Source: a virus. From it: DNA of 21,445 nucleotides. The stretch spans positions 1-21,445 of the IMG/VR virus record IMGVR_UViG_3300006033_000878; one strand, 5' to 3'. The notes under the pieces were generated by a model. It made no database searches. It was given only the letters and a program-made list of their open reading frames with translations, and was not told where the DNA came from. A program made the translations under genes and the position numbers. Positions 3,602 through 21,445 of this stretch are shown piece after piece (position 1 is the first letter of the stretch; each line of letters starts with the position of its first letter).

Positions 3602-4161
3602 GCCGCTCACGCCGCATGATCTTCCCCGACCCCCAGTCCCTCCGTGATCTCATCGGCCCTGATGACAGCATCACCGTCGGCTATGACCTCTTCAGCGACA
3701 ACATCCGCGTCGATATCTGGTCTGCCCCACCCGACCTGGCTGTCCATTCCCGAACCATCCCTGGCACAGCCTTCCGTCAGGCCCACATCTGCCTGATCAC
3801 CTCCACCGTCGAGCTGATGATGACCGACATCAAGCGCCATCGGCGGAACAAGTTCACCTTTGACCATCTCGTGTCGCCGCCCACCATGGTGGGTCCTGAA
3901 TACGTCGTTCCCTTCAGCTCCGAGATGGCCAAGAGGGTGGCCAAGGCTCGGCTCGAGCACGAAGAAGCGCTCCTTTCCAAGATGTTGGAGGAGTGGAACA
4001 AACACTACCGAGGCCAGGAACCAAACGTTCTCTACAGCAAGTCCGATGGCACCGTCCTCGGCCTCACCCTGGTCACCGATCCGAACAACATCGTGGTCAA
4101 GCGCCCCGCCACCTCCCCCACCAAGATCGACATCGGCGTCAGGTTTGACCCCGTCTCGTGA
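3598..4161 (+). CDS. hypothetical early protein, 187 aa
   Basis: This is the last and largest unknown gene of the rightward block. No family recognised. Residues 1-75 have alternating beta-like and loop segments (DDSITVGYDLFSDNIRVDIWSAPPDLAV); residues 105-145 form a charged, probably coiled helix (SEMAKRVAKARLEHEEALLSK and following); the C-terminus again looks beta-rich with VLGLTLVTDPNNIVVKRP. It overlaps the previous stop by four bases. About 10 nt after its stop begin the two hairpins that end the block. A structural fold comparison would be the way to place it. Confidence 0.7.
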   Translation: MSRSRRMIFPDPQSLRDLIGPDDSITVGYDLFSDNIRVDIWSAPPDLAVHSRTIPGTAFRQAHICLITSTVELMMTDIKRHRRNKFTFDHLVSPPTMVGPEYVVPFSSEMAKRVAKARLEHEEALLSKMLEEWNKHYRGQEPNVLYSKSDGTVLGLTLVTDPNNIVVKRPATSPTKIDIGVRFDPVS

Positions 4162-4173
4162 GATCCAAATCGG

Positions 4174-4209
4174 TTTGTGTCTCAAAAAGTCCCATCCGTG
4201 AGACACAAA
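4174..4209. repeat. 11-bp inverted repeat before the terminator
   Basis: Arms TTTGTGTCTCA (4174-4184) and TGAGACACAAA (4199-4209) are perfect, with a 14-nt loop. The hairpin lies between the stop of the rightward block and the bidirectional terminator. It may strengthen termination, or protect the 3' end of the early transcript from exonucleases. Confidence 0.6.
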
Positions 4210-4212
4210 AAG

Positions 4213-4244
4213 AGGCCCGCACCATCAATTGATGGTGCGGGCCT
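4213..4244. terminator. bidirectional terminator, 32-bp perfect palindrome
   Basis: Arms AGGCCCGCACCATCAA and TTGATGGTGCGGGCCT pair without a mismatch. On the minus strand the stem is followed by CTTTTTGTG, a good T tract, so it should end the leftward replication transcript. On the plus strand the tract TAGTTTC is weaker. It sits between two convergent blocks. Positions 4245-4413 hold no gene that I can support apart from the doubtful overlapping frame discussed in the findings. Confidence 0.85.
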
Positions 4245-4413
4245 AGTTTCATGACCACAAGATAAGGTAGATCAGTCCGAAACCATTCCTAATCCTTCTC
4301 GTCGTCCTTGTCCATTACAGGTCCACAGACCCGACCGTTCCTGACACGCCATCCCTCCGACATGAAGTCCCGGAGGAGGTCGAAAGCTTCGACGAACTTG
4401 ACCTTGACCTCCC

Positions 4414-6864
4414 CTACTTCCTCGCTGTGTGTGCATCCAGGACTGTGAGGCCATAGTACCCAGTCTCCTGGAAGCCGCTCACGGAACTCAGCATAACTTC
4501 CCTGAACCCGAGAATCGGGGCCAACTGGCGCATCTTCGCCATAAAGGTGGGAAACAAAACAGGCCGCGCAGCCATACTTGCGGTAAAACTGTGGTATTCG
4601 TCGAACACGTCCCGTGCCGAGATAGCGGTCAATGTCGAGCTGCCAGTCGGCCCAGGATTTCCGGGACAAGGGGTCACTTTGATCCGTTGCCCGGTTTGGA
4701 GAAAAAAATAGATGCTGTCCTGCCCGGCCAGCAAATCCCGAATACGGGTTTCATGAGAGGAGGGGAGGGAATAGCAGTTGCGGTCCTGCAAGCGACCCAT
4801 GACCTGGACGGCCCAGGCCACGATGGCTTCACGCTCTTCCGCGATAATGTCGTCCGCCAGATTGACGTTGCGCTTGTCTTCCGGGAACTTGTTCAGGAAG
4901 GAGAGGATCATCCACCGCCGCAGGAAGCCTTCGGACATATCATCCGACATCGGCAGGTAATTCGAGGCGAACCAGTGGGCGCAGGTAGGGTAGAAGCGGA
5001 AAATCTGCTGCCCCTTGTGTTGCCCAGGCATGGTTTCACCCGCGACCACCTGCTTGAATACCTGCCCGTCGATCTTCTTCTTCTCGTGCAGCTCGCCACC
5101 GATGTTCAGCAGCTTTCCAGCGAGCTGCGCGGGGGCGAATTTGTCGCCCCAGCTATCGGGTGGAATGGCCGAGATGCGGTCGGAAGGCAACAGCCCTTCG
5201 ATGATCCGCAACAGGACCGACTTACCCGAGTGAGCCACACCATAGAGCAAGATTGCACGGTTCATCTTGGTGGCGATGCCGAACAAGGTGGCACAGATGG
5301 CCTCGCGTAGGGACTCGATCTTCTCCAGATAATCATCGTCATGGCCCCAGGCGTCCCGCAGGAAGGCAAAGAAGCGCGGAGCCATCGTCTCGTGGCCAGC
5401 CATATACTGATAGGGCAGGCGATAGGTCATCCCGAAGGCGGGATTGTGGTCGTGAAGCCGCAGATCAGGGGTCAGGAACCCATTGGCGAAGTTGACGCCC
5501 GTGGTGGCAACCTCGGCCAAACTCCGCTGGGACAGGGTGGCGAAGGTCCTCACGACGGCCACATAGTCAGCGTTACGCTTGCAGACCGGGAAGTTGGCAT
5601 AGTTCTGGACCACGTAGGCCTGCAATTCCCACTCGGGCTTGTTGGTCCAGAACGAACCTTCCCACTCCCAGAACTGCTGCATGTGGAAGCGGACGTCACC
5701 CAGCTTGTCCTTCATGTGCTCGGCGATCTCGGCATGGCTTTCGCCATTCAGACCCCGGTTGCGCATCTTGTTCAGCTCACGACGCAGCGTGGCGAGCTGC
5801 AACTTGAGGCCCGAGATGTGGCAGACCATCTTCAGGATCTGTTCTTCCTGGAGCTTGGTCAGGCTGGGAGACCGCTTCACCCGCTCCAGCGTGGAGTGAA
5901 CCGCGTTCATCTTGTCCTGCATGGACACAGCCACGTCCAGATCGCTCTGGAGGATGTCCATGATCTCTTCGTAGGACCGTTCCTGCTCATCCGCGTCGAA
6001 ATCGACGCCCAAGGACTGTTTGTCCTCGTCCGTCAGGCCCTTGTCCCACCCGGAACGCAGCACCAGTTCATCCTCACGCACACTTTTGGTAAGGAAGCGG
6101 ATCAGCTTCTTGACCCCGTCCTTGGGGTCCAAATTGTCCCCAACCACCTGCTCTGTGAAGGTTTCGGGCCACGCTTCGACGCCCCGGATGGCTTCCAGCA
6201 GGGTCAGACGCCCCTTGATCACGTCCGAGGCGTACATACCGCAGACCGAGGCGTACTTGGTGTCGCGGCTGCTCTTGGGAACCCATTCGGTCAGACGGGA
6301 ATAGCCCGAGACCGACAGCTTGACGCCCTTCAGACCCAGCGCCGCCCGCAGGTTCTTCTCGAAGTCCAGCGGCAGCTTGGGCAGTCGGGCGACCACGTCC
6401 AACAGTCCGCAATTGGCCGTGTATTCCAGCCCGGTGTCCGGGTGGATCGACGGCGGCAACACGACCTGGGTGCCCGTGGACAACAGCTCGCAGATGGTTT
6501 GACCACCCATATCCTTGATGCGGAAGGTCTTCTCGCCGTTGAAGCGGAAGGCCGCGACATAGCCCTTCTTGCCGACGCGCTTCCACGGCGACTTGACGGG
6601 CATCATCTCTTCGATGGTCTCGATGACCTTGCCGTCGAGGGTATCGACGTCGAACGCCACGACACCCGAGGCCGGTCCCAGAGGCAGACCGATGTTGCCA
6701 GCGCCATGGACGCTCAACCAACTGTTCTGCTCATCCTCGGTGGGCATCCGCGACCCGAATTGCGACCAATCGAGGATCGCGGGGCGCTTCTGCTTCGGCC
6801 AGAGAGGGATGACAGGGAGCCCTGTGGCCCAATATTGTGGTGCCAGCGTGCCAAAAATACCCAT
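4414..6864 (-). CDS. primase-polymerase / SF3 helicase replication protein, 816 aa
   Basis: This is the phage replicative protein: an N-terminal primase-polymerase domain and a C-terminal D5-like superfamily 3 helicase. Residues 1-170 match the bifunctional primase-polymerase family, with GLPVIPLWPKQKRP, the metal-binding DxD in VVAFDVDTLDG (about 67-77) and VVLPPSIHPDTGLEY (134-148). The helicase has Walker A GVAHSGKS (542-549), Walker B-like LLNIGGEL (585-592), sensor FASNYLP (around 635) and a likely arginine finger in FLRRWMIL. Between them (300-390) lies a long charged helical linker. The His usually found in the primase motif before the second strand is not evident; the segment reads GKKGYVAAFRF. 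The start is ATG at 6864, one base after the upstream stop with GGGAG before it. It would prime and unwind DNA at the phage origin. Confidence 0.9.
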   Translation of the reverse strand: MGIFGTLAPQYWATGLPVIPLWPKQKRPAILDWSQFGSRMPTEDEQNSWLSVHGAGNIGLPLGPASGVVAFDVDTLDGKVIETIEEMMPVKSPWKRVGKKGYVAAFRFNGEKTFRIKDMGGQTICELLSTGTQVVLPPSIHPDTGLEYTANCGLLDVVARLPKLPLDFEKNLRAALGLKGVKLSVSGYSRLTEWVPKSSRDTKYASVCGMYASDVIKGRLTLLEAIRGVEAWPETFTEQVVGDNLDPKDGVKKLIRFLTKSVREDELVLRSGWDKGLTDEDKQSLGVDFDADEQERSYEEIMDILQSDLDVAVSMQDKMNAVHSTLERVKRSPSLTKLQEEQILKMVCHISGLKLQLATLRRELNKMRNRGLNGESHAEIAEHMKDKLGDVRFHMQQFWEWEGSFWTNKPEWELQAYVVQNYANFPVCKRNADYVAVVRTFATLSQRSLAEVATTGVNFANGFLTPDLRLHDHNPAFGMTYRLPYQYMAGHETMAPRFFAFLRDAWGHDDDYLEKIESLREAICATLFGIATKMNRAILLYGVAHSGKSVLLRIIEGLLPSDRISAIPPDSWGDKFAPAQLAGKLLNIGGELHEKKKIDGQVFKQVVAGETMPGQHKGQQIFRFYPTCAHWFASNYLPMSDDMSEGFLRRWMILSFLNKFPEDKRNVNLADDIIAEEREAIVAWAVQVMGRLQDRNCYSLPSSHETRIRDLLAGQDSIYFFLQTGQRIKVTPCPGNPGPTGSSTLTAISARDVFDEYHSFTASMAARPVLFPTFMAKMRQLAPILGFREVMLSSVSGFQETGYYGLTVLDAHTARK

Positions 6865-6865
6865 A

Positions 6866-7114
6866 TCAGGCTCCCGTCGAGACGGACAGCTCACCGGAAA
6901 CGGCCAGCAACTCGACCACGTAATCAGTGGCCATGCGGAACGGCATCTCGACCAGAAGACCGTCCTGGATCTTCTTCACCTTCTTGGCTCCGAAAATCAG
7001 GAAGGCATCCTCCAGACGGTCGCTATCGATCAAGTGACCACCCTCCGTGGTGACCCGAAGGGACACCCCGTCCACCTCGCGGCGCACGAACACCTTCAAT
7101 TTCTCCAACATCAC
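6866..7114 (-). CDS. hypothetical protein, 82 aa
   Basis: No family recognised. The GTG at 7114 overlaps the upstream stop (GTGA); an ATG at 7111 gives one residue fewer and better spacing to GGGAG, so either may be used. The protein is mixed alpha/beta (LKVFVRREVDGVSLRVTTEGG, then AFLIFGAKKVKKIQDGLLVEM). Its stop is one base before the primase-helicase start, so the two are translationally coupled. Given the position, a replication accessory role is plausible but unproven. Confidence 0.7.
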   Translation of the reverse strand: MMLEKLKVFVRREVDGVSLRVTTEGGHLIDSDRLEDAFLIFGAKKVKKIQDGLLVEMPFRMATDYVVELLAVSGELSVSTGA

Positions 7115-7587
7115 TGATCTCCCATCATCTCGATGACGCGGGTCCGCTGATCGGGCGTCAGCACGTCGTCCATGATGGCGTGCATGATCCGATTGAACTC
7201 CGCGACTTTCTTGTGGCTCATGGACTTGTCACCAACCGAGATCAGGCGTTCCAGCAGACCCGCCTTGGCCTTGATGATCTGCACGGTCTCCCCCGTGTCA
7301 GCCTCGACCTGGGCCTTTTCCAGCTCGGCATAGAGCTGACGCGCCTTGGTGGCCACATCATCCCAGGCTTCCGGGGCAGAAGCGTCCCAGTCATCGACGA
7401 CAGCCAGACTGTTTTGCGCAGCGTCGGTCTTGGTGCCGTTGATGTTGCGCAGCCAGTTCTTCAGGCCATCGTCATAGGGGCAGAGAGGGTCGTCGAGATA
7501 CTCTTCATCCCGCTTCATCCGGTTGACGACGACCTTCAAGGAGTCAATCACACCGGGGGCGAGGCGAGGGTATTCACGATCAGCCAT
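7111..7587 (-). CDS. hypothetical protein, possible terminase small subunit, 158 aa
   Basis: No firm family. I chose ATG 7587, which has GAGAGA 6-8 nt upstream; the in-frame ATG at 7593 is too close to that site. The protein is acidic and helical. The second half (EKAQVEADTGETVQIIKAKAGLL onward) is a long helical stretch ending in DVLTPDQRTRVIEMMGD. Small terminase subunits of some phages end in a similar way, and no other candidate for that subunit lies near the large subunit, which starts 140 bp away on the opposite strand. Against this: opposite orientation and no visible helix-turn-helix. It is first in the leftward replication block, so a replication role is the alternative. Confidence 0.7.
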   Translation of the reverse strand: MADREYPRLAPGVIDSLKVVVNRMKRDEEYLDDPLCPYDDGLKNWLRNINGTKTDAAQNSLAVVDDWDASAPEAWDDVATKARQLYAELEKAQVEADTGETVQIIKAKAGLLERLISVGDKSMSHKKVAEFNRIMHAIMDDVLTPDQRTRVIEMMGDQ

Positions 7588-7653: not shown

Positions 7654-7686
7654 GTCAGTAGACTAAAAAATTTTAGGTCTACTGAC
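7654..7686. promoter_or_regulatory. inverted repeat between divergent blocks
   Basis: Arms GTCAGTAGAC (7654-7663) and GTCTACTGAC (7677-7686) are perfect; the spacer itself is the AT-rich palindrome CTAAAA/TTTTAG. A second palindrome, GGAAATTTCC, lies at 7698-7707. Both sit in the 140-bp gap between the leftward replication block and the terminase gene, the expected place for a shared operator. The T's are in the loop, so this is not a standard terminator. Confidence 0.6.
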
Positions 7687-9478: not shown

Positions 9479-10960
9479 ATGGCTATCGCATCCAAGCTCC
9501 TGAACCTGATTTTGCCGACCAAGGCCCCAAAGAAGCCTTCGGGGAGCACGAACACGTTCAATCCCAGCCTCGGGGACCGGAGCTTCCTGCCCGCGCCAGG
9601 TTTCCTGGACCATCTGACCGACATTCAGACCCAGCGGCAGTCCCTCGACGCCAAAGCCCTGATGTCCTGGTTGTTCAAGCAGGACCCCGATGTCAGCGCT
9701 GCCGTCAATGCCTACCTGACCACGGCGGACACACCCCCGGTGATGTACGTCCAAAAGCTGGACGGGAGCTTCGACGAGCAAGGTCATAATGTCGTCGGCC
9801 AGATCCTTTTGGGTCTAACCACCCGCACCGACTATTCCAAGGGCTACCAGCGCGTCACCAGCCTGCGCGGCATCTGCGAACAGCTTCGTTACATGGTCTT
9901 GCTGCGAGGGGCCGTTGGCACCGAGCTGGTTCTGGATAAGTTCCTGATCCCGAACCGCCTGAACAATATCGACATGGCTACCATCAAGTGGCAGGAAAAG
10001 GAAGCAGGAGCCTACGTGCCCGTTCAGTCCGCTCCCGCGAGTGGACGCGACATCGACATGGACATCCCCACCTTTTTCACCGCGTTTTTTCGACAGGACC
10101 CGACGAGCATTTACCCGGAGGGGACGTTCGTCTCGGCCATCAACACCATCGCGGCGCGTCAACAGGTCATCAATGACCTTTACCGCATCATGCAGATCAC
10201 CGGGTACCCCCGCATGGATCTATCCGTGTTGGAAGAGACCTTGGTCAAGAACGCCCCCGCCTCGGTTCAGCAGAACGCGGATGAGCGGCGCAAGTGGGTC
10301 AACACCCGCTTGCAGGAGATCTCTCAAACCCTGTCGTCCTTGCGCCCCGACCAACCCCTGGTCCACACCGATAGCACCGAAGTCAAGATCATCAACGACA
10401 AGAACCCTGGTTTGGGTGTCGACATCAGCCACGTCATCAACGTGTTGAACGGCCAAAACCAAGCAGCGTTGAAGACGATGGCAACCATCATCGGGCGAGG
10501 CGAGAGCGGTGTGAACACGGCCTCGGTCGAGGCTCGTGTTTTCTCCATGAACGCCGACCAGCTCAATCGCCCGGTGGCGGATGTGTTGTCTCAGGTGCTG
10601 ACCTTTGCCCTCCGCCTGACCGGCAGCGATAGTCACGTCGTCGTTCGTTTCGACGAGGCCGAACTGCGCTCGGCGACCGAGATGGAGCCGCAGCTCACCC
10701 TCAAGCAGACCCGTTTGCTCCAGCTCTTGAGCATGGGCGTGATCAGCGACATCGAGTTCACGATGGAGATGCTGAACCGTCCGCCTCTCCCTGGCGCCCC
10801 TCAGTTGTCGGGGACTAACTTCATGCCTATGGGTAGCGCCGAGGTCGCGGCTGATACCGCTGCGAATACCTCAGGCAACACCGACAGCGTTGGGCGCTCG
10901 CTTGGGGGAAAAGAAACCACCAAGGCTGGTAAGACTGTCCGTTCCAACTCCCAGAAGTGA
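9479..10960 (+). CDS. portal protein, 493 aa
   Basis: The protein forms the dodecameric ring at the capsid vertex through which DNA enters and leaves. It follows the large terminase directly, as portals nearly always do, and its length fits. Recognisable parts are the N-terminal clip/wing start with SWLFKQDPDVSAAVNAYL (an early helix typical of HK97/SPP1-like portals), the central SIYPEGTFVSAINTIAARQQ segment, and DISHVINVLNGQNQAALKTM leading into VNTASVEARVF, close to the crown. The C-terminal 50 residues are Ala/Gly/Thr/Ser-rich and probably disordered. Translation start is supported by the hairpin arrangement described at 9461-9476. Confidence 0.88.
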   Translation: MAIASKLLNLILPTKAPKKPSGSTNTFNPSLGDRSFLPAPGFLDHLTDIQTQRQSLDAKALMSWLFKQDPDVSAAVNAYLTTADTPPVMYVQKLDGSFDEQGHNVVGQILLGLTTRTDYSKGYQRVTSLRGICEQLRYMVLLRGAVGTELVLDKFLIPNRLNNIDMATIKWQEKEAGAYVPVQSAPASGRDIDMDIPTFFTAFFRQDPTSIYPEGTFVSAINTIAARQQVINDLYRIMQITGYPRMDLSVLEETLVKNAPASVQQNADERRKWVNTRLQEISQTLSSLRPDQPLVHTDSTEVKIINDKNPGLGVDISHVINVLNGQNQAALKTMATIIGRGESGVNTASVEARVFSMNADQLNRPVADVLSQVLTFALRLTGSDSHVVVRFDEAELRSATEMEPQLTLKQTRLLQLLSMGVISDIEFTMEMLNRPPLPGAPQLSGTNFMPMGSAEVAADTAANTSGNTDSVGRSLGGKETTKAGKTVRSNSQK

Positions 10961-10971
10961 AGGGGATAATC

Positions 10972-11232
10972 GTGTTCCCTGATAAACTCTGCCGTTGGCT
11001 TGGCCTGAATGAACCCGACAAGTGTCCTTTTGCCCCCGCAGCCGAAAAGGTCGCGCAGATGGAGGCAAACATGGTGCAGCTTTCACGTAGTATTGACGCC
11101 CTCCGTGTGGAGTTCGACAAGCTGGGCCAAGGCTTTTCTAAGCACATGCACCGCGAGGAAGCTGAGTTTGGACGCATCTTGTCTGGGGTCCAAGAAGTTT
11201 TGAACCACATCAGGGGTGGGACCCATGGATGA
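10972..11232 (+). CDS. small coiled-coil protein, 86 aa
   Basis: No family recognised. The GTG at 10972 is preferred because AAGGGGA lies at 10960-10966; the longer frame from GTG 10957 overlaps the portal stop but lacks a site. Residues 1-25 contain two cysteines (CRWLGLNEPDKC), and residues 26-80 form one amphipathic helix (EKVAQMEANMVQLSRSIDAL and following) with coiled-coil spacing. It is soluble-looking. It is the first gene of a four-gene cassette separating portal from protease; its partner could be the coiled-coil membrane protein that follows. Confidence 0.65.
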   Translation: MFPDKLCRWLGLNEPDKCPFAPAAEKVAQMEANMVQLSRSIDALRVEFDKLGQGFSKHMHREEAEFGRILSGVQEVLNHIRGGTHG

Positions 11233-11620
11233 CTCCAGCAACCTCCTCCTGGGCGGCGGCGGCGTTACTCTTGCGGCGGCGATCTTTCAAGCCGTCCGTA
11301 TTTGGCGTCGGGACAAACAGACTGACGATGTTCACGAGCGGGCCAACCGTGCAACCGACGGCCTCCTGGCCCGTGTGAGCGAGTTGGAGCAGGAAAACAA
11401 GGACCTCCGAGCTGAAAACAAGCAGTTGGCCAAGGAGATTGGTCAGTTGCAGGGGAGGGTCGAAGCTCTTCAGACCTTGTTGAACACCCAAGTCAGGAAC
11501 CTCGACGCTGGTTATCGCAGGCTTAAGCGTGAGAACTCTGAGCTTCGCGCAAAGCTGGGGCTCGAAATCGATCCTATTGACGATCCTATCGATACGTCGT
11601 GGGCGGGAGGTCCTGCATGA
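11225..11620 (+). CDS. membrane-anchored coiled-coil protein, 131 aa
   Basis: Residues 7-24 are a short hydrophobic Gly/Ala-rich segment (LLLGGGGVTLAAAIFQAV) followed by basic IWRRDK, consistent with an N-terminal inner-membrane anchor. Residues 47-112 form a long coiled coil with clear heptads (ELEQENKDLRAENKQLAKEI). The C-terminus is acidic and Pro-containing. The ATG at 11225 has GGGGTGGG upstream and overlaps the previous gene by 8 bases. The layout resembles inner-membrane spanins or other phage envelope proteins, but no outer-membrane lipoprotein partner is seen nearby, so the role is open. Confidence 0.7.
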   Translation: MDDSSNLLLGGGGVTLAAAIFQAVRIWRRDKQTDDVHERANRATDGLLARVSELEQENKDLRAENKQLAKEIGQLQGRVEALQTLLNTQVRNLDAGYRRLKRENSELRAKLGLEIDPIDDPIDTSWAGGPA

Positions 11621-11979
11621 CTACCCAACAGCTCCTGATCTACTCCCTTTCCCTGTTGGCGATTTACACGCACGCCCGCGTGATTGTCCAGGGAACCCAC
11701 CTGTTGCTCAGGTGGTACCGCTTGGATACCGCCCGTGAGATCCGAGATACCGCCGCAACGGTAGCTTTGTCTCTGCTTTACATCGCCGCAGAACTTGACT
11801 GGATGGACAAGGGTTTCTGGGCCGTCACCGGAGGCTTCCGTGAGATCATCTGGCTGACCTTTGGGTTGGGGACGGGCTACGCTTTTTTGCAGGCTCTTCA
11901 AACACGCGAGATGATCTATGCGATCCACCACACCTGTCGAAAAGGGCCGAGTGATGCGCCGCAAGCTCATTCTCACTGA
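11617..11979 (+). CDS. three-helix membrane protein, holin-like or carrier-like, 120 aa
   Basis: Three hydrophobic segments are visible: residues 5-31 (LLIYSLSLLAIYTHARVIV and on), 46-62 (AATVALSLLYIAAELDW) and 74-94 (FREIIWLTFGLGTGYAFLQAL). Length and topology fit class I holins, and loose membrane proteins of other kinds. The ATG at 11617 overlaps the previous stop (ATGA) with GGGAGG six bases upstream, a strong site. The last 26 bases overlap the following solute-binding-like gene. With no endolysin recognisable in the window, a lysis role cannot be confirmed; a membrane partner of the next gene is the alternative. Confidence 0.7.
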   Translation: MTTQQLLIYSLSLLAIYTHARVIVQGTHLLLRWYRLDTAREIRDTAATVALSLLYIAAELDWMDKGFWAVTGGFREIIWLTFGLGTGYAFLQALQTREMIYAIHHTCRKGPSDAPQAHSH

Positions 11980-12739
11980 GGCCATCCTACGTGGTATAGC
12001 CCCCATCATTTTCATCATCTGCATCGGGTTCATTTTCTTCCAGGCGCCTCAACCTCTCCGTCTGGTCACCCAGGTGTACCCGCCCTACCAGGACGTTCTC
12101 GACGGCCAACCGGTGGGCACCTCCGTGGACACCATGAAGTGTGCCTTGGACGCCGTCGGTCATTCCTACGAAATCACAATCGTGCGAGGTCAGCAGTGGG
12201 CGAACGCACAGGATCAGACCCGTCGAGGTGAGTACGACGGTTTTTTCGGTGCTTTGCACACTCAAGCCCGTGACGAGTATGCCGTCTGGTCCGCCGCGCT
12301 GGACGTGAACCTTTCCTACTTCATCAAGCGGAAAGAGACCACTGCCATCCGCACGGAACCCTACACCCGCTGGGGTGTAAAGAAGGGCTCCGGGGTGTCT
12401 GCCCAGATGCAAGGCAAGATGGTGAACATCACCTATTACGCTGAGGATAATCCTGACCTCATCAAGGCACTGGCAGATGGGGTGGTCGACTACGTCTACA
12501 TGGACCTCAACATCTTCCGCTGGAGCCTCGCTTCCAACAACATCTCTGACCCCATCCTTGAACACCTGAAAGGGTCGCCTGACGCAGCTTTCGAGACGAC
12601 CTATTACGTCTTGGAGCCCGTCGCCACTCAGATGTACGGCGCTTACATCTCCCGTAAGTGGGCGAACTCCCACCCAGGTTTCATGGATCGACTGAACTCG
12701 GCAATCGGTAACTGTCGTGTCAAAGGTGAGCTTCAGTAA
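11954..12739 (+). CDS. membrane-anchored solute-binding-protein-like domain, 261 aa
   Basis: The fold resembles family 3 extracellular solute-binding proteins of ABC transporters and related sensors. Residues 11-29 (ILRGIAPIIFIICIGFIFF) form an uncleaved-looking signal anchor. The mature part begins LRLVTQVYPPYQ, the typical first strand and PPY motif, followed by DGQPVGTSVDTMKCALDAVG, then QW, GEYDGFFGALHT and RDEYAVWSAAL, which correspond to the usual G..D....T..R.....S order; the second lobe (131-235) returns through DLIKALADGVVDYVYMD. Two cysteines (63 and 254) could be disulphide-bonded. Start ATG 11954 has AAAAGG 7 nt upstream. Such a gene between portal and protease is unexpected; it would face the periplasm. 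The fold is fairly sure; ligand and role are unknown. Confidence 0.8.
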   Translation: MRRKLILTEAILRGIAPIIFIICIGFIFFQAPQPLRLVTQVYPPYQDVLDGQPVGTSVDTMKCALDAVGHSYEITIVRGQQWANAQDQTRRGEYDGFFGALHTQARDEYAVWSAALDVNLSYFIKRKETTAIRTEPYTRWGVKKGSGVSAQMQGKMVNITYYAEDNPDLIKALADGVVDYVYMDLNIFRWSLASNNISDPILEHLKGSPDAAFETTYYVLEPVATQMYGAYISRKWANSHPGFMDRLNSAIGNCRVKGELQ

Positions 12740-12755
12740 AAACTTGGACAATACC

Positions 12756-12787
12756 AGCCGATACTAGTATCGATACTAGTATCGGCT
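12756..12787. repeat. 32-bp perfect palindrome of two overlapping 14-bp units
   Basis: The left half is AGCCGATACTAGTATC and the right half is its exact reverse complement. Inside, the 14-bp palindrome CGATACTAGTATCG occurs twice, sharing a central CG, so the site is both a dyad and a tandem repeat. It lies in the 68-bp gap after the solute-binding-like gene and before the protease gene. There is no T tract, so an operator or protein-binding site is as likely as a terminator. A possible -35 TTGGAC precedes it at 12744. Confidence 0.85.
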
Positions 12788-12807: not shown

Positions 12808-13995
12808 TTGACCGAAAATTTGCCGAACACTACACTGCGATCCATGTTCAAGGAAATCGCACCCACTCAGTCGATGCTGTCCCAGATCGCCCTAGTAACG
12901 GGCGCTCCGGTTGACCCGTCTCAGATTGCGATCTTTGAGACCATCTCGCTGAATACCTTGCCTGTCTCGAAGAAAGGCTCGATCTACGAGGGCGCTGTTG
13001 CCACTCCGGGCCTGCTGTCTGACATGGCGGCCCACATCAAGGCAGGAAACTCCGTCCCTCTACACACCCTTCATAACCAGGGCGGGGAACTCCCCGTCGG
13101 CAAGGTGTTCCTGGCAGGCACCAATGGGCCGGAAGAACTGCGGTCCCTGTTTTATGTGCCTCGCAACACTGCTGAAGGCGCAGACCTCATCACCAAGCTG
13201 AACACTTCCGTCATCGACGAAGTCTCCGTCGGCGTCATGGCCGCCCACATGCGTTGCTCGCAGTGCGGATGGGATTACCGTGGTTCGGACGCCTCGATGA
13301 TGAACCTGTTCGACCGGGAGTGTGCCAATGGCCACGTCATCGGAGAGAACGGGACCCACCTGATCCTGGATGGGCTCGACCGCTGGTACGAACTGTCCCT
13401 GGTGTCCCTGGGGGCCGCGAACAACGCCAAGATCGTTGGTCGCGCCCGCCAGATCCTTGGCAAGGAGGAATACAACCGCCTTGCTGCCTCGGGGAATGAT
13501 CCTGAGATCATGACCCTATTCATCACCCCCACCCGTAAGGAGACGCCCGAGATGGCTGACCCCAACACCCCCAACCTGGAGGCTGGGTTCGCCCTTGTGG
13601 CGTCCCTGTCCGAAGCCAAGGCCCAGGCGGAAGCCTCGCTGAAGGCTACCACCACCCAGGTCGAAACCCTGAACGCCCAGGTCACCGCCCTGGTCGCCGA
13701 AAATGACTCGCTGAAGAAGCAGGTGGCTGACGCCTCCGAGATGGTCGCCCTGAAGTCCGACCACGACAAGTTGGTCAGCTTCCTGTCCGAAGCGACCAAG
13801 GACGCCCTGGTCGCCTCGGGCGTCGAAAACCCGCAGGTCCCCAACAAGGTCGAGGACATGGTCGCCGTGTTCAAGGACACGACCATCAAGCTGCACAACC
13901 TGTTGCCCAAGGGACAGGTCGGCGAACCCGCTGACGCTTCCTCGGCCAACGCGCAGGCCCCGGCGAATGCCGCTGCGTTCCAGTTCAAGCGTTAA
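12808..13995 (+). CDS. prohead protease fused to scaffold, 395 aa
   Basis: The enzyme matures the capsid by cutting scaffold and capsid N-termini. Residues 40-210 follow the HK97-type serine protease pattern: SIYEGAVATPGLL, the catalytic His region VPLHTLHNQGGELPVG (His86 or His89), the catalytic Ser in DEVSVGV (Ser140) and the closing WYELSLVSLGA. Between Ser140 and that strand lies an insertion with C150xxC153 and C172/H176, a probable zinc knuckle. Residues 255-395 are Ala/Glu/Lys-rich coiled coil and act as the scaffold. The start is TTG at 12808, with a poor GAAGA site; the next ATG at 12844 has no better site. An internal start for the scaffold is listed separately. Confidence 0.85.
   Translation: MTENLPNTTLRSMFKEIAPTQSMLSQIALVTGAPVDPSQIAIFETISLNTLPVSKKGSIYEGAVATPGLLSDMAAHIKAGNSVPLHTLHNQGGELPVGKVFLAGTNGPEELRSLFYVPRNTAEGADLITKLNTSVIDEVSVGVMAAHMRCSQCGWDYRGSDASMMNLFDRECANGHVIGENGTHLILDGLDRWYELSLVSLGAANNAKIVGRARQILGKEEYNRLAASGNDPEIMTLFITPTRKETPEMADPNTPNLEAGFALVASLSEAKAQAEASLKATTTQVETLNAQVTALVAENDSLKKQVADASEMVALKSDHDKLVSFLSEATKDALVASGVENPQVPNKVEDMVAVFKDTTIKLHNLLPKGQVGEPADASSANAQAPANAAAFQFKR
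13552..13995 (+). CDS. nested scaffolding protein from internal start, 147 aa
   Basis: Within the protease gene, in the same frame, ATG at 13552 (residue 249, start MADPNTPNLEAGF) is preceded by TAAGGAGA at 13536-13543, a far better ribosome-binding site than that of the protease itself. The product is exactly the coiled-coil part. The same arrangement is established for lambda, where Nu3 scaffold is made from an internal start in C. From this point the codon choice also becomes more biased, like the neighbouring capsid gene, which fits abundant expression. The internal initiation is inferred from sequence alone. Confidence 0.65.
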   Translation: MADPNTPNLEAGFALVASLSEAKAQAEASLKATTTQVETLNAQVTALVAENDSLKKQVADASEMVALKSDHDKLVSFLSEATKDALVASGVENPQVPNKVEDMVAVFKDTTIKLHNLLPKGQVGEPADASSANAQAPANAAAFQFKR

Positions 13996-18007: not shown

Positions 18008-18442
18008 ATGGGTGAGTACGTCAACACCTACGCCTCCCTGGTGAAGTTCCTGCAAGGGTTCATCACTGAGAACGCCCCTGGCGGCGAGTTTCTGGACTTC
18101 GACCAGCACGCGGACATCGACAAGCTGCCTGCTAAGGACGTCATCGGTCTGCGAGGCTTCTCCGTAGACGTCAGCTCGGCGACGATGGGAGTTCAGGTCC
18201 TTTTCTGCCTGACCACCTATGATGATAAGTCCGGGTTCCGTCACCGTGCGTTGACGGACAAGCTATTCACTGCCTTGCTCCCCACTAAGAACATCCCCTA
18301 TGTCGACGCCGACACGGGGGCGGTCCTCGGCTATCTGGTAGCCAACGACGAAACCTCCGTCTTGCCTATAACCAAGGCCAGCACGCGGGTCTTTCAGCAG
18401 ATCACCGTCAACCTGCTGGCGGACAGGAAGCCAAGGCTTTGA
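18008..18442 (+). CDS. probable tail terminator / completion protein, 144 aa
   Basis: The gene is immediately before the tail-tube gene, apart from the antisense repressor insertion, as tail terminators are. The N-terminal helix ASLVKFLQGFITENAPGGEF is followed by alternating strands (GFSVDVSSATMGVQVLFCLTTYDD) and a helix RALTDKLFTALL, the alpha/beta layout of gpU-like proteins that cap the tail. The last 35 bases are overlapped on the opposite strand by the ribbon-helix-helix gene. Confidence 0.65.
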   Translation: MGEYVNTYASLVKFLQGFITENAPGGEFLDFDQHADIDKLPAKDVIGLRGFSVDVSSATMGVQVLFCLTTYDDKSGFRHRALTDKLFTALLPTKNIPYVDADTGAVLGYLVANDETSVLPITKASTRVFQQITVNLLADRKPRL

Positions 18443-18587
18443 AGATCTCCACGTCGGTCCTGCTCTCAAGTCTGAGGTAGGTTTCGACAATGTGAGCGAC
18501 CTCTCCGCTGAGTGATCGGTGGTTCATCCTCGCCCGGTGCTCAAGACGATCCTTGAGGTCGCCCGGAAAATCAATCGTGGCCCGCAT
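18408..18587 (-). CDS. ribbon-helix-helix repressor, 59 aa
   Basis: A small DNA-binding protein of the Arc/MetJ type, encoded antisense within the tail genes. Residues 1-8 (MRATIDFP) form the DNA-contacting strand, residues 9-22 (DLKDRLEHRARMNH) helix A and residues 24-40 (SLSGEVAHIVETYLRLE) helix B, with the family's typical RS-LS-E turn. ATG 18587 has AGAAG eight bases upstream; a GTG at 18596 would abut it. A near-consensus promoter (18625-18653) and two TGATGCA repeats lie upstream. No toxin gene is adjacent, so it is more likely a regulator than an antitoxin. Because its transcript crosses the end of the tail terminator gene, it might also affect late expression directly. Confidence 0.8.
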   Translation of the reverse strand: MRATIDFPGDLKDRLEHRARMNHRSLSGEVAHIVETYLRLESRTDVEIFKALASCPPAG

Positions 18588-18588
18588 G

Positions 18589-18615
18589 TGATGCACTTCT
18601 CATCATTTTGATGCA
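18589..18615. promoter_or_regulatory. putative operator of the ribbon-helix-helix gene
   Basis: TGATGCA occurs at 18589-18595 and 18609-18615, exactly 20 bp apart (two helical turns), with an inverted TCATCA at 18600-18605 between. Short spaced repeats on one face of DNA are typical of ribbon-helix-helix operators. The site lies between the promoter and the start codon, fitting autorepression. Confidence 0.55.
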
Positions 18616-20220: not shown

Positions 20221-21445
20221 ATGACCACTGGTGGCCCGAATGATGACGGCAGCGAGATCTATCTCGACGTAACCAGCAATCTTGGAACCATCCTGGCCGA
20301 GGTGCGGAAGATCCACTCCGAAGTGGGTCTTCTCGGCACCAACCTTAACCATGCCTTCACGCTGAACACCAGCACCGTCCAAGGGCTGAAGGAATTCCGA
20401 CGGACCTTGCAGGACATCTCCTCGGGGATGTCCCTGTTCGGTGACAAGCTGAACCTGCGAGGGTTTGAGACAGCCCTCACCAACGCTATGACGCGAGGCT
20501 TCAGCGCCAGCGTCAAGAGCATGGAGAGCATGGTCAGTCAGGCCATGACGAAGGAACTGGACAAGTTCTCACGAGCTTTCCAGCAGCAGATGGTAACCCG
20601 TGCGGGGGTTAAGGACCCTTCCGTGGAAGCCTACGTGGCCCAGGCTCGTCAACTTGCCAGTGTAGGGGTGACTGGTTTTCGCATCACGGGCTCCTCCCTG
20701 GATGAACTGGGGAAGATGAAGGTTGCCCTGACCCAGTTGGCCAATGAGGTTTCCCACAACACCATCTTGTGGGAACGGTACGCGAAGTACCTAGGTTTCG
20801 TTGATGCGGAAATTGCCAAGGTCACAAATTCCAATAAGGCTTTGGCAGCTTCCCTCCGCGAAAAGAACCGGGAGGAGGTGGCCAACACCCGCATGGTTGT
20901 CGCTGATCAGCGGGAGCGTTTGAAAACCGCAGCAGCGCAAAATGCAGACGAGGTGGCTACCACAAAAATGGTGACGGCAGCTCGCCGTACTGCGACGAAC
21001 GAGCTGGCTCTTCAAAATGCTGATGAGGTCGCCAGCGCTCGTATGTATCGGGCGTTCCGTCAGCAAAACGCAGGGGAGATCGCCGCGCAGAACCGGGACG
21101 AGATTGCCACGGCCAGGATGGTGACGGCAGCTCGTCGTACTGCGATGAACGAGCTGGCTGTTCAGAACGCTGACGAGGTCGCCAGCACCCGTATGTATCG
21201 GGCGTTCCGTCGTCAGAACTTGGATGAGATCGCCGCGCAGAACCGGGACGAGGTCGCCAGTGCTCGGATGATCACGGCGGCTCGACGCAACGAGGCTGGG
21301 GAACTTTCTGCCCGTAACCGGGACGAGGTCACCAGCGCCAAGATGCACATGGCTTTCCGCAGGGAGCGATTGGCGGAAATCGCCGCGCAGAACCGGGATG
21401 AGGTCGCCAGTGCCCGGATGGCCACCGCCGATAAAAAGTCGCTGG
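20221..21445 (+). CDS. tape measure protein, N-terminal part, 408+ aa
   Basis: The open frame runs off the window end. ATG 20221 follows GGAGG (20209-20213). The protein is helical and of low hydrophobicity: a polar start (DGSEIYLDVTSNLGTILAEV), a region with SVKSMESMVSQAMTKELDKF, and from residue 214 tandem 25-residue repeats (listed separately). Tape measure proteins set tail length and are released with DNA at infection; the position after the frameshifted chaperone is diagnostic. The repeated part is coiled-coil-like and highly charged. The hydrophobic and C-terminal enzymatic regions, if present, lie outside the window. Confidence 0.85.
   Translation, partial: MTTGGPNDDGSEIYLDVTSNLGTILAEVRKIHSEVGLLGTNLNHAFTLNTSTVQGLKEFRRTLQDISSGMSLFGDKLNLRGFETALTNAMTRGFSASVKSMESMVSQAMTKELDKFSRAFQQQMVTRAGVKDPSVEAYVAQARQLASVGVTGFRITGSSLDELGKMKVALTQLANEVSHNTILWERYAKYLGFVDAEIAKVTNSNKALAASLREKNREEVANTRMVVADQRERLKTAAAQNADEVATTKMVTAARRTATNELALQNADEVASARMYRAFRQQNAGEIAAQNRDEIATARMVTAARRTAMNELAVQNADEVASTRMYRAFRRQNLDEIAAQNRDEVASARMITAARRNEAGELSARNRDEVTSAKMHMAFRRERLAEIAAQNRDEVASARMATADKKSL
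20860..21445 (+). repeat. 75-bp (25-aa) tandem repeats in the tape measure gene
   Basis: Seven full units and one partial unit begin at 20860, 20935, 21010, 21085, 21160, 21235, 21310 and 21385. The consensus begins AQNRDEVASARM and ends with ARR or AFR plus NEL/EIA. Units alternate between two types, so the period is also 150 bp; 21010-21159 and 21160-21309 are nearly identical at DNA level. The frame is kept throughout and the array continues past the window edge. Confidence 0.92.

Follow-up and report, generated by a model that had tools for sequence, protein, structure and literature searches.

The window, a 21,445-nucleotide stretch of viral DNA (IMG/VR record IMGVR_UViG_3300006033_000878), carries four closely overlapping forward-strand genes between a portal protein gene (9479-10960, +; phrog_3753, E 9e-98) and a gene for a putative head maturation protease or scaffold (12844-13995, +; phrog_37797, E 4e-76). 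The first gene of this cassette (10957-11232, +) begins with a GTG that overlaps the portal stop codon (GTGA) and encodes a protein of 91 aa, probably helical and with no membrane helix. The second (11225-11620, +) encodes, from its second ATG, 131 aa with a hydrophobic segment at residues 6-24 and a long coiled coil behind it. The third (11617-11979, +), which shares an ATGA overlap with the second, encodes a 120-aa multi-helix membrane protein that is holin-like in build only: Pfam and phrog scans gave it no family match, so none marking a holin. The last (11954-12739, +) overlaps the third by 26 nt and encodes a membrane-anchored family 3 solute-binding protein of 261 aa. No permease or ATPase was found among the neighbouring proteins scanned in this genome fragment, and within the 21 kb of the record no endolysin or spanin gene lies next to the cassette.

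An earlier note, made from the sequence alone, had placed a solute-binding-protein-like gene at exactly these coordinates, between portal and protease. The position and the portal stand; the protease label corresponds to phrog_37797, a phage family without assigned function, with only E 0.05 to a head maturation protease family. Alignment with relatives makes the ATG at 12844 the likely start of this putative protease. The interval between it and the binding-protein gene contains a perfect 32-bp palindrome (12756-12787), formed by the palindrome GATACTAGTATC and a second, tandem copy of it, just ahead of a promoter-like TTGACC-17-TACACT at 12808; the 32-bp palindrome occurs in none of the other fetched loci. 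Elsewhere in the window, a 16-nt inverted repeat (7654-7686; arms 88% complementary, 1 nt apart) occupies the divergent gap before the terminase gene. A small Arc-like ORF lies on the reverse strand (18408-18596, -), where phage JWF has an annotated reverse-strand Arc-like gene, and an ORF with many degenerate NRDEVASARM..A.R repeats, probably the start of a tape measure protein, runs off the right end (20221-21444).

The binding protein consists of one N-terminal membrane helix followed by a family 3 solute-binding domain. All the elements on which the earlier identification was based can be located in it, namely a hydrophobic segment (residues 11-29), the motif YPPY (42-45), and the pairs G92..D95 and T103..R106. 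Its score against PF00497 (SBP_bac_3) is 28.9 bits, compared with a Pfam curated cut-off of 26.4. With 20 aligned proteins from phages and bacteria as input, AlphaFold2 generated a two-lobe model with a mean pLDDT of 92.4 and a pTM of 0.83, superseding a discarded single-sequence model (pLDDT 39). The best Foldseek match of the model in the PDB is a glutamine-binding protein (E 5e-14), and VIA-align against the VFT2 domain of BvgS gives Z 18.7 across 209 residues, with similar values (about 18) for glutamine-binding proteins and GluR0. The top PDB matches comprise family 3 binding proteins together with sensor domains. A profile of the binding protein and six plasmid-borne homologues also reached E 5e-14 against arginine- and glutamine-binding proteins in the PDB. 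The family 3 identity proposed in the earlier note is thus confirmed, together with a two-lobe type II periplasmic-binding fold as predicted by the model; a structure lacking the two lobes, which the note had named as the outcome against it, did not arise.

As the note also held, the protein is likely anchored in the membrane. The N-terminal helix has no clear cleavage site, and reading the sequence revealed no lipobox: Cys23 is part of the helix itself and has Ile at -1. When the protein is aligned with E. coli GlnH, whose ligand contacts we take to be an Arg, a Ser/Gly pair and an Asp, the carboxylate-binding Arg falls on R106, the Ser/Gly pair on S146-G147 and the amino-group Asp on D184. 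From these positions we infer that the predicted pocket would accept an amino acid or a similar solute. Cys63 and Cys254 are conserved in most rows of the alignment, which fits a disulphide in an exported protein, and only the phage proteins have the two insertions at 79-81 and about 197-213. MltF, a murein enzyme carrying such a domain, was absent among the listed sequence or fold matches, and no kinship with it is claimed.

One further viral contig with a homologue emerged from a profile-guided scan, IMGVR_UViG_3300025648_000042 (hereafter L126). Its binding protein is 44% identical to that of the window, scores 26.8 bits against PF00497, and is identical at R106, S146-G147 and D184. A full-length homologue at this distance in an independent phage contig indicates that the ORF is not a chance one. 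Identities at the three codon positions of the two genes (0.56/0.65/0.33) follow the pattern of a coding gene, and this codon pattern shows purifying selection; the GC content of the gene is 0.56, versus 0.59 overall. The gene order of the cassette is the same in L126. Counterparts are found there for gene 2 (hhalign E 1e-6, shuffle z 9.3, scores that coiled-coil composition can inflate) and gene 3 (E 6e-7, z 9.6), while an 88-aa gene occupies the position of the 91-aa gene 1 with marginal sequence similarity. No other gene of the window has a tblastn match in the surrounding 16.8 kb of L126, an indication that the four genes moved together.

The surroundings of the cassette in L126 are those of a lysis region. 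It stands behind tail-fibre-like genes and ahead of lysis genes: 3' of the binding protein are a 51-aa ORF and tiny ORFs, then a GH24 endolysin (Pfam E 3e-40; phrog_7 E 2e-49), all closely spaced or overlapping. Three more ORFs come after the endolysin: one is hydrophobic, one resembles Rz, and the third, an embedded ORF of lipoprotein-like character, resembles Rz1. Their putative assignments as holin, Rz and Rz1 derive from build and position rather than from strong family matches.

In the cultured relatives Lumi, JWF, 2-1, Seuss, KB12-38 and fJoAci01, no forward genes lie between portal and putative protease, and the gap in Seuss holds one small reverse gene. Among 81 related loci with both flanks, some of them near-duplicate contigs, the gap as extrapolated from tblastn is at most 300 bases in 48 and larger in 33. 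Many relatives have 2-6 kb of cargo here, mostly tail-fibre-like genes with collagen-like repeats (L017-L024, L029, L039, L040, L045-L052, L057, L059, L065 and L070). The gap of L057 includes an endolysin-like gene and a small membrane-type gene, those of L008 to L010 encode coiled-coil proteins, and L011 has the portal with homologues of cassette genes 2 (39%) and 3 (30%) and no binding protein. These differing contents mark the portal-protease gap as a cargo site. The gap genes of L032 (8451-9917, -) lie on the reverse strand, one resembling a PadR-type regulator by eye, and are unlike the tail and lysis cargo elsewhere.

The binding gene itself does not recur at this place in related phages, where the earlier note had suggested looking for it: profile A10, which recovers both positive controls at E near 1e-81, found it in none of 74 related phage records, several of them fragments. 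This search replaced a PF00497 scan that had missed the window's own gene. Likewise, neither the window nor the L126 protein had a tblastn match in 50,697 phage records, and scans with single proteins gave none. A degenerate DNA motif scan of viral contigs returned three matches, one being the L126 contig; in the other two the motif lies outside binding proteins. No integrase was found in the window, nor in L126, and among the relatives only some carry one. Given the cultured relatives without the gene and its lysis-side position in L126, we regard it as part of a movable membrane cassette and not of the head module. The earlier suggestion that the copy inside the head module acts in the infected cell is therefore plausible.

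The closest cellular relatives found occur in Vibrio, Photobacterium, Marinomonas and their kin as solitary binding proteins (up to 29% identity, E 3e-13), most of which are housed in Vibrio-type type VI secretion (T6SS) clusters and whose nearest annotated members have no transporter partners beside them. In a genome scan, homologues of FHA, TssJ and TssK were directly downstream of the binding protein in all 27 gammaproteobacterial loci, a retrieval biased by patterns drawn from the window protein and two T6SS-linked proteins; they were absent at the single spirochaete locus and in three plasmid relatives (L092-L094). Such orphan family 3 genes upstream of FHA, TssJ and TssK are seen in L098-L124 (about 3900 to 7500) and L089-L091, and in L124 the binding protein and FHA form a single 582-aa frame. 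The Vibrionaceae and Marinomonas proteins share with the phage protein the cysteines 63/254 and the motif GFF....(5)R, but mostly lack the equivalent of Asp184 and the two insertions shared by the phage proteins. The window contains no T6SS genes. In V. fluvialis, a putative ABC-type periplasmic component and an MFS transporter have been noted at the junction of such a T6SS cluster (PMC5371669). A T6SS role of the orphan binding proteins seems undescribed in the open literature searched.

Our preferred, if tentative, reading is that the phage protein is a periplasmic ligand sensor that works together with the holin-like partner to time lysis or to control the envelope. It would be made in the infected cell and tethered to the inner membrane with its lobes in the periplasm, where Arg106, Ser146/Gly147 and Asp184 may hold a small, amino-acid-like ligand; it would not feed an ABC transporter. 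Closure of the lobes could be relayed to the products of genes 3 and 2, the multi-helix and the anchored coiled-coil protein, and the cassette would in this way signal the condition of the periplasm or envelope and adjust lysis timing or envelope integrity. Amino acids or cell-wall peptides are our guess for the ligand. A sensor is preferred because tethered sensors, besides transport proteins, are among the structural neighbours, because the annotated bacterial relatives lack adjoining ABC partners, and because the membrane and coiled-coil partners are conserved.

Several observations count for a link with lysis, including the high-confidence fold, the retained GlnH contacts, the order shared by two unrelated phages and the run of the L126 cassette into an endolysin gene. 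The endolysin-like gene in the L057 gap, the solitary T6SS-cluster relatives, the tethered-sensor structural neighbours and the precedent of phage T4 count in the same direction. In T4, the periplasmic antiholin RI, which is described as DNA-binding, inhibits the holin T while membrane-anchored (PMC11413866). This is the nearest analogy, in logic only: in both cases an anchored periplasmic protein would work with a membrane partner in lysis, but no sequence or fold kinship with RI is claimed for the phage binding protein. Counting against a role in lysis, the lysis neighbourhood is seen in L126 and, as a partial parallel, in L057, whereas no endolysin or spanin adjoins the cassette of the window. 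L011 does without the binding protein, gene 3 has no match to a holin family, and the lysis genes of JWF are located elsewhere, behind its tail genes. The more specific version, a lysis programme gated by a small molecule, in which a solute-binding receptor signals to membrane and coiled-coil proteins, an amino-acid-like or cell-wall ligand times lysis and the cassette passes from one phage to another, unrelated one, we consider unlikely on present evidence.

The main rival is superinfection exclusion or immunity, in which a cargo cassette would block the DNA entry of other phages, for instance by occupying a host inner-membrane or periplasmic injection protein. Because the portal-protease gap is a cargo site whose content varies from one relative to another, this explanation has to be kept in play, and the membrane-anchored, periplasmic build and sporadic occurrence of the protein agree with it. 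However, the L126 cassette runs straight into the endolysin gene instead of standing isolated, and the retained amino-acid-contact residues would be needless in a mere blocker, so that exclusion appears rather unlikely.

Alternatively, the protein could capture an amino acid during infection and pass it to an ABC transporter of the host. Amino-acid import is usual for family 3 proteins and the contact residues are kept, but the protein apparently stays membrane-anchored and is always accompanied by other cassette genes. Moreover, the neighbours scanned include no permease or ATPase, and the nearest annotated bacterial relatives have no adjoining transporter partners. Such an auxiliary nutrient function is improbable. 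The neighbouring proteins scanned matching no transporter family, we likewise found no support for the nutrient sensing or the interference with a host transporter or chemoreceptor that the earlier note had envisaged.

The place of the gene among head genes in the window, with gene 1 overlapping the portal stop, might point to a packaged virion component, such as part of an ejected membrane channel or of a receptor contact. This is very improbable in view of the L126 copy between tail-fibre-like and lysis genes, the 74 relatives with intact head modules in which the gene was not found, and the N-terminal hydrophobic segment of export type. That a bacterial gene was misassembled into phage DNA, or is a recent non-functional insert, is hardly credible despite the rarity of the gene in phages and the mostly bacterial family, considering its overlap with the preceding cassette gene, the same order in the independent L126, the portal with genes 2 and 3 in L011, the codon pattern of purifying selection and the GC of 0.56 against 0.59.

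Among known systems, GlnH, ArtJ and the Coxiella arginine-binding protein (3tql) have the same two-lobe fold as the phage protein (Z 17-19), and their Arg, Ser/Gly and Asp positions for ligand contact are shared as well. The phage protein differs in being about 13-17% identical to solved structures, in having no clear cleavage site or lipobox and no ABC partner nearby, and in belonging to a phage cassette. The sensor domains of BvgS, GluR0 and the histidine kinase 3h7m resemble it in fold (Z 18-19) and in membrane tethering; in those proteins the domain forms one chain with a kinase or channel, whereas in the phage cassette the presumed partner is a separate gene. Other virus-encoded proteins with the broad periplasmic-binding fold, the CroV amino acid transporter and PBP2_Bug proteins of uncultured phages, match weakly (TM about 0.3-0.6, 8-14% identity), and none falls in the same subfamily. 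The binding protein is thus not a new kind of protein, its fold being already known in viruses and its family membership borne out. What appears new within the searches made is the four-gene cassette, the fact that two unrelated phages share it, and its location immediately ahead of an endolysin; the open-access literature yielded nothing relevant on phage solute-binding proteins tied to lysis or exclusion.

Superinfection is among the cues answered by phages that are known to adjust their lysis. With a ligand-binding receptor that has a standard amino-acid pocket and is encoded next to lysis genes, control of lysis by a chemical signal could be put directly to the test. Members of the subfamily are also found as orphans in type VI secretion clusters, so that work on the phage version could help to explain the solitary binding protein found there.
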